A DNA stretch of 55,447 bases from positions 1,770,561 to 1,826,007 of the forward strand of contig OX639992.1 of assembly GCA_951828515.1 (NCBI GenBank), in the 5' to 3' direction. A program made the position numbers and the translations under genes. Shown here one piece after another: positions 10,187 to 14,712 of the stretch. Position 1 is the first letter of the stretch. The number at the start of each line of letters is the position of its first letter. This stretch comes from an uncultured Poribacteria bacterium (GTDB lineage: Bacteria; Poribacteria; WGA-4E; WGA-3G). Below the pieces are notes generated by a model. It did no database searches and had not been told where the DNA came from. It was given only the letters and a program-made list of their open reading frames with translations.

Positions 10187-11473
10187 ATGGCAAAAGCTGA
10201 TTCACAGCAAACAATTCAGAACGAAATAACAATGACAGGAAAAGGGTTAATGTTAGGGGAATCCGTGACGTTAACCTTGAAACCAGCACCGGCAGATTCC
10301 GGCATCGTCTTCCGACGTGTGGATATGGCTGGTGCGCCTGAAGTGAAGGTATGTCAGGAAAACTGGGCAGATATTCTGCCACGATGTACCAGTTTACGTA
10401 ACGGTGATACAACGGTTAGCAGCATCGAACACATCCTCTCAGCACTCGGCGGTCTCGGCGTTGACAACGCGACGGTGGAACTTGACGCGTCAGAACCTCC
10501 TGGGCTTGATGGGAGTGCGGTACCATACGTCGAAAATATCCAAGCAGTAGGGCTCGTCTCACAAGATGCCCCACGGAAGTTTATTGAGGTCACGGAACCG
10601 TTCGCGCTTTCTGTAGGGGATAAGCAACTCGTGTTGCTACCTGCCGACGTTTTAGAGGTGACGTTTGTTTATGCACATCCGCAGACGAAACCACAAACAG
10701 CAACATTCAAAATAACCCAAGAATCGTACGCTGGCGACATCGCACCAGCACGGAGTTTCTGTTTCGAAAATGAAATTGAAGCCCTACAGGCACTCGGTAT
10801 CGGGAAAGGGGCAAACTATGATAACGTCGTTGTTATCAATACCGCAGGTGAACCCAGCACACCACTGCGGTTTGAAGACGAGTTTGTCCGACATAAAATC
10901 CTTGATTTGATTGGCGACCTCTATTTAGCTGGACACCTACCGAAAGCACATGTTCTCGCGATGCGGACTGGACATATGTTTCATGCGGAATTTGTGCAAG
11001 CCCTCGCTGAAGCGGGCCACCTCCAACAGGTACCAGTTCAAGAACCGATCGAGGTAATGGATATCTATGAAGTGTTGCCGCATCGGCATCCGATGTGCAT
11101 GGTCGATAGAGTTATTGAATACGAAAGCAAAAAGCGCGCTGTAGGCGTTAAGAATGTGACTTATAACGAACCAATTTTTGAGGGGCATTTCCCGACGCGC
11201 CCTGTGATGCCGGGTGTGCTACAGATTGAAGCCCTCGCACAACTCGCTGCGTGGCTTGTGCTTCGAGACATCGGTAAGGAAGGTGAACTTGGCTATTTTC
11301 GCTCAATCAACAAGGCAACATTCCGACGCGCTGTCATTCCGGGGGACCAACTCCGACTGGAAATAGAGGTCGCACAACTACGAAGCAGAATTGCACGCAT
11401 CGAAGGTCGCGTTTACGTAGGAGACGAACTCGCTACAGAGGCAGAACTATCAATCGTATTAGCATCTGCCTGA
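10187..11473 (+). CDS. lpxC/fabZ: Bifunctional UDP-3-O-acyl-GlcNAc deacetylase / (3R)-hydroxyacyl-ACP dehydratase (LpxC-FabZ fusion)
   Basis: One 428-residue protein joins two cytoplasmic activities. Residues 1-280 are LpxC, the zinc deacetylase that commits carbon to lipid A: SSIEHILSAL holds the first zinc His, FVRHKILDLIGD the second His and Asp, and AMRTGH the general acid. Residues 285-428 are FabZ, a hot-dog fold dehydratase: VLPHRHPMCMVDRV has the catalytic His and GHFPTRPVMPG and IEALAQ the helix with the acidic residue. The same fusion is known in Bacteroidetes and Planctomycetes. It balances hydroxyacyl-ACP use between lipid A and fatty acid synthesis. It is followed by lpxA and lpxI. 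Confidence 0.96.
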   Translation: MAKADSQQTIQNEITMTGKGLMLGESVTLTLKPAPADSGIVFRRVDMAGAPEVKVCQENWADILPRCTSLRNGDTTVSSIEHILSALGGLGVDNATVELDASEPPGLDGSAVPYVENIQAVGLVSQDAPRKFIEVTEPFALSVGDKQLVLLPADVLEVTFVYAHPQTKPQTATFKITQESYAGDIAPARSFCFENEIEALQALGIGKGANYDNVVVINTAGEPSTPLRFEDEFVRHKILDLIGDLYLAGHLPKAHVLAMRTGHMFHAEFVQALAEAGHLQQVPVQEPIEVMDIYEVLPHRHPMCMVDRVIEYESKKRAVGVKNVTYNEPIFEGHFPTRPVMPGVLQIEALAQLAAWLVLRDIGKEGELGYFRSINKATFRRAVIPGDQLRLEIEVAQLRSRIARIEGRVYVGDELATEAELSIVLASA

Positions 11474-12530: not shown

Positions 12531-13346
12531 ATGCCTAAAAAAGTGGAAAAATTGGGTATTATTGCAGGTGCAGGTGAGTTGCCGGTGCTATTAGCACACG
12601 CTGCTGTTGCCCATGAACGACAACCCGTTATTATCCAAATAACAAAATCCGACGCACAACGCTTTGCTGGAATCGCATGCGAACTTCACACTTATGGGGT
12701 CGGTCAGATTCAAAAGATCACCCGAACGCTTCTTAATTCAGGCGTAAAAGAGGTTGTGATCATCGGAAAAGTCGAAAAAAACATCCTCCTTCGCCCCTTT
12801 CAAATTGACACAACAACCATTAAAATCCTCGTACAGAACCGGCGAGAAAAACCTTCCGTAATCGTCAACGCCGCACTTAACTACCTTGAATCCGCCGGAC
12901 TTACCATCCTCACCCAAGATCAGTACCTCCAGCACCTTCTCCCGGAACCCAACGTCCTCACAACCCGACAACCCACTGCAAGCCAATGGATAGATATTGA
13001 ACTCGGTATCAGTATCGCCCGTCAGATAGCAAATATGGATATTGGGCAAACAGTTGTCGTTAAAAATCAGATTGTCCTTGCTATGGAAGCCATTGAAGGG
13101 ACAGATGCAACTATTCAACGTGGAGGAAACTTAGGAAGGCAAGGTGTCATTGTTGCGAAAGCCGCCGCTGAGAGCCACGATTTTCGTATTGATGTGCCGA
13201 CGGTGGGAATGCAAACACTTGAGGTGCTGCATCAAGTTAAAGCGAGTGTGTTAGCAGTGGAAGCACGGCGAACCTTTGTGATGGATGCCGATGCCCTCAT
13301 TCAGCAAGCAGACCGGTGGAAGATTGCAATCGTTGCAGTAGAATAA
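12531..13346 (+). CDS. lpxI: UDP-2,3-diacylglucosamine pyrophosphatase LpxI
   Basis: LpxI hydrolyses UDP-2,3-diacylglucosamine to lipid X and UMP in organisms without LpxH. The 271-residue protein has the N-terminal LGIIAGAGELPVLLA motif (about residues 7-21), GKVEK in the middle and DVPTVGMQTLE near residues 223-233, all hallmarks of this family (formerly DUF1009). It follows lpxA by 74 bases, as expected for lipid A genes. No strong Shine-Dalgarno sequence is seen. Confidence 0.93.
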   Translation: MPKKVEKLGIIAGAGELPVLLAHAAVAHERQPVIIQITKSDAQRFAGIACELHTYGVGQIQKITRTLLNSGVKEVVIIGKVEKNILLRPFQIDTTTIKILVQNRREKPSVIVNAALNYLESAGLTILTQDQYLQHLLPEPNVLTTRQPTASQWIDIELGISIARQIANMDIGQTVVVKNQIVLAMEAIEGTDATIQRGGNLGRQGVIVAKAAAESHDFRIDVPTVGMQTLEVLHQVKASVLAVEARRTFVMDADALIQQADRWKIAIVAVE

Positions 13347-13350
13347 TAAA

Positions 13351-13413
13351 AAAGGCGGAAGTATTGTTCCGCGAGCCTCTATAGGCTTGCGTACTATAAC
13401 CACCTCCGCCTTT
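13351..13413. terminator. Terminator hairpin between convergent lpxI and the selenoprotein gene
   Basis: AAAGGCGGA (13351-13359) pairs with TCCGCCTTT (13405-13413). An inner stem is GCGAGCC/GGCTTGC, and an alternative stem is GCGGAA/TTCCGC (13355-13372). On the minus strand the stem runs into TTTTTTATTATT, so it acts best as a terminator for the selenoprotein gene. Confidence 0.7.
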
Positions 13414-13426
13414 CCAGAGACGCTGG

Positions 13427-13660
13427 CTATGCCGCCGCGTCCATCGCGGTTGTTATCTGCTCTGTCGTCGGAAATTGTCCCGTTTCTAACTTTGAATAAA
13501 GCAGTGTTCCGTTTAAAGAGACTTCAAAAGCCCCACCACTACCGGGGATCAAATCGACCGTCTTAACTGCCGTACCGTATTTCTGTTTTAAGGCATCCGC
13601 CAAACTGGCTGCCCGTGGCTGGTAGTTTCAGGCGGTGCAGTATTCAATTCTCACTTCCAT
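13427..13660 (-). CDS. SelW/Rdx family selenoprotein (Sec at codon 11, in-frame TGA)
   Basis: A 77-residue thioredoxin-fold redox protein, missed by standard ORF calling because codon 11 (13630-13628) is TGA. Read as selenocysteine it gives MEVRIEYCTAU, then NYQPRAASLADALKQKYG, with the CxxU redox motif at residues 8-11 where SelW/Rdx proteins have CxxU or CxxC. IPGSGGAFEVSLNG (about residues 40-53) and KLETGQFP are further family hallmarks. GGAGGATACTTTC before ATG is a strong ribosome binding site. Fourteen bases after the TGA lies a hairpin suited to a bacterial SECIS (13592-13613). The frame is open to a TAG at 13427 and a U-rich terminator follows. No other Sec genes are in the window. 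Confidence 0.88.
13592..13613 (-). promoter_or_regulatory. Candidate bacterial SECIS hairpin
   Basis: Coding-strand GGCA-GCCA-GTT-TGGC-GGA-TGCC: an eight-base-pair stem with a three-base bulge and a GTT loop. It starts 14 bases after the Sec TGA. Bacterial SECIS hairpins lie just 3' of the UGA in the coding region and have a small loop containing GU, which fits. Confidence 0.6.
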
Positions 13661-13785
13661 GAAAGTATCCTCCTCATTAGTACTGAGATTGCCTATCACG
13701 ATGGATCCAATCGTCTATTTTAAAATTTTACAACAAATATGAGAAAATAGCAAGTTTTTTCGCGTCCTTTACAAATTAGTAAGGA

Positions 13786-13802
13786 TTGGCATAGATTTTG
13801 CT
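13786..13802 (+). promoter_or_regulatory. Possible sigma54-type promoter upstream of the TonB-domain gene
   Basis: TTGGCATAGATTTTGCT matches the -24/-12 pattern (TTGGCAC-N5-TTGCW) with the correct spacing and one deviation in the core. A sigma70 reading of the same AT-rich stretch is possible. The leader to the ATG at 13915 would be about 100 bases. Confidence 0.3.
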
Positions 13803-13914
13803 ATATTTAGCGTAGATACTCGTTCCGTTTGCAAAAACAAAACCGTAAAGTATACATCACCCCTATGCTGAGCGTACCTCACGGATACGCAGTCAGCAAA
13901 TAGGTGTTTAAATT

Positions 13915-14712
13915 ATGAACAGGTCTATCCAATTTCTGAACAAGTCTGTATCTTTATCTATCTGCGTCCACCTGATCGGTGTTGCGATCGCAGCTCTATC
14001 TATCGTCGGGACAGTAGATAAACACGGCGATGCGATTATGGCTGAATTTGTCTCGCTCCCCGAGACAAAACCTATGCTCGAGCCACGCCGACTCAAAGTG
14101 CCAGCATTAACACAGCCAAATTTCATTCACTCGCAGCCACAGCGTATTCGGATGATTTCAGATGCCGCCCACACACCGCAAAGCCAGCCGAAACCCTTCG
14201 TTGATACGCTTCCGGTCTCGACTATCCAGCAGACGACTCCAACAGAAATTGGAATAGGCGACGAGAAAACACTTCAGCGTAATTTACCTCTCCGGTCCCC
14301 GGATCGTGGTTCACAACTAATCCGTCCGACCCCTAAACGGATATCACGTCCAGCGTGGTCATTGATACCAACTGTTATTGCGAGTGCTGAAGCCACCGAA
14401 CTTCCATCAGTTTCGGTACTGCCGGAGGAACCAACACAAGATGCTCGGTTCTTCCGTAAAGTCGATCCGATATATCCCGAATCTGCGCGCCTTTCCCACA
14501 AGGAGGGACTCGTTGTGCTTGAAGCGACAATCGGTACAGACGGCATAGCGAGAGACATCAAAGTTATCAAGGTGATCGAGATTAGTGGGTTAGGATGTGA
14601 AGAAGCGGCAATTACGGCACTCAAAGCGTCCCGATTCGTGCCAGCGAAACGGGGCAAAATAGTTGTCAGTCAACGTCTCCGTATTCCTTACCGCTTTCAG
14701 TTTAAAAATTAG
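13915..14712 (+). CDS. TonB family protein (energy transducer-like)
   Basis: A 265-residue protein with one N-terminal transmembrane segment (about residues 11-31), a Pro-rich periplasmic spacer (residues 45-170) and a C-terminal TonB domain (about 175-265). YPESARLSHKEGLVVLEATI, ALKASRFVPAKRGK and IPYRFQF are the usual TonB_C landmarks. Such proteins pass proton-motive-force energy from ExbB/ExbD to outer-membrane receptors. No exbB, exbD or receptor gene is adjacent, so it may act as a stand-alone TonB or an envelope stabiliser. Confidence 0.85.
   Translation: MNRSIQFLNKSVSLSICVHLIGVAIAALSIVGTVDKHGDAIMAEFVSLPETKPMLEPRRLKVPALTQPNFIHSQPQRIRMISDAAHTPQSQPKPFVDTLPVSTIQQTTPTEIGIGDEKTLQRNLPLRSPDRGSQLIRPTPKRISRPAWSLIPTVIASAEATELPSVSVLPEEPTQDARFFRKVDPIYPESARLSHKEGLVVLEATIGTDGIARDIKVIKVIEISGLGCEEAAITALKASRFVPAKRGKIVVSQRLRIPYRFQFKN

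Follow-up and report, generated by a model that had tools for sequence, protein, structure and literature searches.

The SelW-like locus and its surroundings

The analyzed window, a stretch of 55,447 nucleotides, belongs to a Poribacteria genome of 5.85 Mb that is assembled in one contig and 95% complete. On the minus strand, positions 13660 to 13427 hold a frame of 77 codons followed by a TAG stop, which encodes a SelW-like protein of the Rdx family and, with TGA translated as selenocysteine (Sec, U), yields MEVRIEYCTA-U-NYQPRAASLADALKQKYGTAVKTVDLIPGSGGAFEVSLNGTLLYSKLETGQFPTTEQITTAMDAAA*. The sole TGA in the frame is codon 11 (13630–13628, minus strand), a putative Sec codon at the second redox position of the CxxU motif (Cys8-T-A-Sec11). 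The ATG is preceded by the ribosome binding site AGGAGGA (13674–13668, minus strand; 7 nt upstream), and an AGGAGG-type site likewise precedes the ATG in the loci fetched from Poribacteria relatives. A terminator-like hairpin with a T-run is located 3' of the gene (13372–13355, minus strand), which is weak evidence by itself, with two such hairpins observed in the region and 0.8 expected in shuffled sequences. The first-pass annotation had placed a gene at 13427–13660, with a frame broken only by a TGA in a CxxU context, a strong ribosome binding site, and a terminator after the stop; all of this was borne out, and the strand, left unstated there, is minus. The gene had also been called hidden, which is true of the plain open reading frame (ORF) list of the window (table-11 code), where no ORF appears at this position, but not of family databases, as NCBIfam holds models for this (seleno)protein family.

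The SelW-like gene is flanked by lpxC, lpxA, and lpxI on one side and by tonB on the other, all on the opposite strand. Its convergent downstream neighbor is lpxI (12531–13346, plus strand; Pfam LpxI_N/LpxI_C), and its divergent upstream neighbor encodes a TonB C-terminal-domain protein (13915–14712, plus strand; profile match). A functional link to the lpx genes was considered and found to be unsupported: only close relatives from the same lineage share the neighbor order. Since the neighbors lie on the opposite strand and the arrangement was not found in a more distant genus, we do not claim a pathway link. Within the lpx cluster, which includes lpxA and lpxI, LpxC is fused to a FabA/FabZ-like domain in a single protein of 428 residues (10187–11473).

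For profile searches, the TGA was read as Cys. The product scored 89.3 bits with Pfam Rdx (PF10262; cut-off 22.6; E = 1.9e-25), 90.8 with NCBIfam NF041051 (cut-off 88), and 77.9 with TIGR02174 (cut-off 34.2), the latter two being SelT/SelW/SelH models. These scores exceed the curated cut-offs, and the Rdx match is not a chance match; it is the only one in the host genome. Both CxxU positions are invariant in 27 aligned relatives (TGA written as C), and an AlphaFold2 model based on the alignment of 27 relatives (mean pLDDT 96.2) predicts a thioredoxin-like fold. Foldseek against the PDB returned the bacterial SelW-related proteins 2fa8 and 2ojl as top matches (TM 0.94–0.95), and bacterial SelW-related proteins were also among the best matches of a PDB sequence search. 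The SelW/Rdx identity proposed in the first-pass annotation is thus upheld by Pfam, NCBIfam, PDB search, and Foldseek alike. Across the SelW-related structures 2fa8, 2ojl, 2obk, 2oka, 2p0g, and 3dex, the fold agrees with TM values of 0.86–0.95 at 28–37% identity; these solved proteins presumably carry Cys at the second motif position, where the Poribacteria gene has UGA. Mouse selenoprotein W (2npb) shares the CxxU motif and the thioredoxin-like fold (TM 0.71, followed by thioredoxins), but its sequence match is weak (E = 0.00068), and the SECIS element of the Poribacteria gene lies inside the coding region, as is general in bacteria, whereas eukaryotic SECIS elements are located in the 3' UTR.

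Conservation of codon 11 and of the downstream frame

SelW-like matches were obtained in 57 of 59 genomes of the family and in 78 of 85 genomes of the phylum, each match with one in-frame TGA (57/57 and 78/78, respectively); among the better phylum genomes (≥ 90% complete, ≤ 5% contamination), 54 of 56 had a match. When the fetched loci were read directly, codon 11 was TGA in all 44 distinct Poribacteria sequences and in all relatives outside Poribacteria except one (L110), which has TGC for Cys. Because the search patterns left out codon 11, Cys forms had not been selected against. Downstream of the TGA, pS was 0.48 vs. a pN of 0.10 in frame, i.e., about fivefold, in pairwise counts that are not independent; the other two frames gave pS/pN values of 0.20/0.19 and 0.07/0.23. 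Variable columns after the TGA were distributed 35/18/58 over the three codon positions. Judged by these substitution patterns, purifying selection acts on the codons that follow the UGA, which evolve as protein-coding sequence.

These data bear on the reading of the UGA as a genuine stop, by which the locus would be a pseudogene, or a pair of fragments, derived from an earlier SelW of the Cys type. A table-11 translation indeed shows a stop and leaves the locus without a listed ORF, but the invariant TGA in the 44 distinct Poribacteria sequences and the purifying selection behind it refute a pseudogene. The same codon in other phyla and the full Sec machinery of the host (see below) also argue against a genuine stop, which we regard as extremely improbable. 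Relatives with a plain stop and no conservation after it, named in the first-pass annotation as evidence to the contrary, did not turn up; the TGA and downstream coding are both kept.

Furthermore, the conserved frame is informative about how the UGA is used. Sec insertion generally competes with termination, and it would be consistent with this if readthrough were of low efficiency and a selenium-sensing switch, not a dedicated redox protein, were what matters at this locus. However, the UGA is followed by a stretch of 66 residues with the conservation of an Rdx domain, and no co-directional gene lies downstream as a target of such regulation, since lpxI, which comes next, is convergent. We therefore consider such a switch very unlikely and favor a dedicated Sec-containing Rdx protein.

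The closest relatives are all from Candidatus Poribacteria. A fairly close TGA-bearing SelW (51% identity) was also encountered on a contig labelled Rossellomorea aquimaris (Bacillota); its taxonomic placement is odd and could be due to transfer.

The SECIS hairpin and the Sec machinery

Bacteria decode UGA as Sec by means of SelB, which, together with Sec-tRNA-Sec, binds the loop of a hairpin; Sec is then inserted at the UGA. At the SelW-like locus, a candidate bacterial SECIS (bSECIS) hairpin starts 13 nt after the UGA and extends from 13614 to 13591 (minus strand), within one base of the 13592–13613 given in the first-pass annotation. Its 9-bp stem comprises a lower part of 5 bp, a 3-nt bulge on the 3' side, and an upper part of 4 bp (GCCA/UGGC) that closes the loop GUU (13605–13603). 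Published bSECIS rules call for a loop of 3–9 nt, a stem of 4–16 bp, G in the first two loop positions, a distance of 16–37 nt from the UGA, and an MFE ≤ −7.5 (PMC13188914), and the hairpin agrees with them by its loop with G in first position, its stem of 4 upper and 5 lower base pairs, a UGA-to-loop spacing of 22 nt, and a folding energy of −10.2 kcal/mol. The energy alone is unremarkable (z = −1.05; 27 of 200 shuffles equally good), and an Rfam scan of positions 13000–14000 returned chance matches only, with no SECIS family match. As the shuffle test was not significant, we used conservation instead, and it is on conservation that the SECIS assignment rests.

The four upper pairs are kept in all 62 distinct sequences, while pairing dropped to 3–60% in a control in which the partner was slid by 1–3 bases. 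They are formed in every one of the 28 sequences from other phyla, and in five of these C-G is replaced by G-C where the silent positions of the Ala and Leu codons pair. The Ser codon in the loop is AGT in 57 of 57 sequences with Ser at this position, whereas elsewhere in the genes Ser is encoded mainly by TCN. In Poribacteria, the codons GCC AGT TTG, which cover the upper stem with its loop, are free of silent changes in 35 distinct sequences; third positions farther along the gene vary freely. The next pair below the upper stem is formed in most other phyla and is an A-A mismatch in most Poribacteria, where in most cases the stem instead resumes past the 3-nt bulge. The SECIS check suggested by the first-pass annotation thus gave a hairpin that fits published constraints and covaries across phyla.

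The host carries a full bacterial Sec system. Its tRNA-Sec scored 78.1 bits (gathering score 47) and was assigned the anticodon TCA (UCA) by ARAGORN; selA reached 594 bits (cut-off 268), selB, which lies about 180 bases before the tRNA-Sec gene, 348 bits (cut-off 242), and selD 359 bits (cut-off 125). The selD gene (L020; host contig G000:C1:4977731-4978654) has an in-frame TGA of its own, in the context CAG-U-ASK, with a hairpin soon after it. Within the family, SelB was above the cut-off in 54 of 59 genomes, the remainder being fragmented or less complete assemblies. Absence of this machinery had been named beforehand as a point against Sec decoding, and all four components were found; together with the conserved TGA and the covarying hairpin, they support the earlier proposal that this organism decodes UGA as Sec.

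Several host genes hold an in-frame TGA, as would be expected if a variant genetic code had turned UGA into an ordinary sense codon for Trp or Gly. Yet 10 of the window's 35 long ORFs terminate in TGA, which shows that the codon has not simply been reassigned, and the TGA stops of neighboring genes contradict a variant code. Moreover, every in-frame TGA that was examined coincides with a catalytic Cys/Sec site, and tRNA-Sec (UCA) and selB are present, which leaves scarcely any probability for a reassigned codon.

The gene almost certainly encodes a SelW-like selenoprotein of the Rdx family with a putative thiol/selenol redox pair, its UGA being decoded via the SECIS element. During translation, SelB carrying Sec-tRNA-Sec would bind the hairpin just 3' of the UGA, and, as we infer from the sequence data, Sec would be inserted at codon 11 in place of termination. 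The resulting 77-residue product would fold like a thioredoxin-family SelW, and its Cys8/Sec11 pair may undergo thiol/selenol redox exchange with protein partners or low-molecular-weight thiols.

Relation to known selenoproteins and selenium use in Poribacteria

Bacterial SelW-like selenoproteins had been catalogued by 2006 (PMC1794560), and a 2026 inventory describes SelW-like proteins by CxxU and PF10262 (PMC13188914). The Poribacteria gene shares with them the Rdx domain, the CxxU motif with Sec in second place, and the SECIS element directly downstream, and differs in host lineage only; it adds a member to the long-known SelW-like CxxU selenoproteins, of which bacterial ones have been known since at least 2006. 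In organisms that use Sec, Cys forms were described as scarce or missing (PMC1794560), a remark that the all-TGA pattern of Poribacteria SelW fits. The binding of 14-3-3 by SELENOW is a mammalian finding (PMC8508763) and is not claimed for the Poribacteria protein. In the literature searched, no physiological role of bacterial SelW-like proteins was found, nor any paper on Poribacteria and “selenoprotein”, the latter being weak evidence, as the search misses most subscription journals.

Searches for other selenoproteins in the host genome revealed seven AhpC/TSA-family matches with one in-frame TGA each. In all four that were read, the TGA is located at the catalytic Cys. Two of these are adjoining genes of the peroxiredoxin family with the TGA at the peroxidatic Cys, namely L122 (FTGG-U-TTELCSL; G000:C1:2238444-2238815) and L124 (FGRG-U-TAQVCSL; G000:C1:2238894-2239262), which are likely Sec-peroxiredoxins. 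The other two are L123 (GGW-U-PFC; G000:C1:1764278-1764649, minus strand), about 6 kb outside the window, and L125 (TGT-U-GDC; G000:C1:614342-614713, minus strand); both show hairpins with G-rich loops just downstream of the TGA. The three remaining matches lie at G000:C1:2064408, 4911999, and 2266215. With SelW, SelD, and the four peroxiredoxins, the host likely has at least six selenoprotein genes. A weak AhpD-related match below the cut-off (L127; G000:C1:5446599-5447147) holds one TGA and one TAA, and a search for deiodinase-like selenoproteins gave no match, the search's own controls being equally silent.

The understanding of Sec decoding itself is unchanged by the SelW-like gene. However, annotation that treats UGA solely as a stop misses a conserved, single-copy, putative redox protein of sponge symbionts. 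SelA and SelB were reported in most sponge-symbiont bins and as enriched in sponge symbionts (PMC5649159), and consistent with this, SelW, SelD, and the likely Sec-peroxiredoxins point to a broad selenium-dependent redox system. We lean towards the view that Poribacteria are a phylum-wide Sec-using lineage with a so far unrecognised selenoproteome comprising SelW, SelD, and several Sec-peroxiredoxins, in which SelW stayed a Sec protein without any Cys replacement found, suggesting that Sec may be essential to this protein in sponge symbionts.
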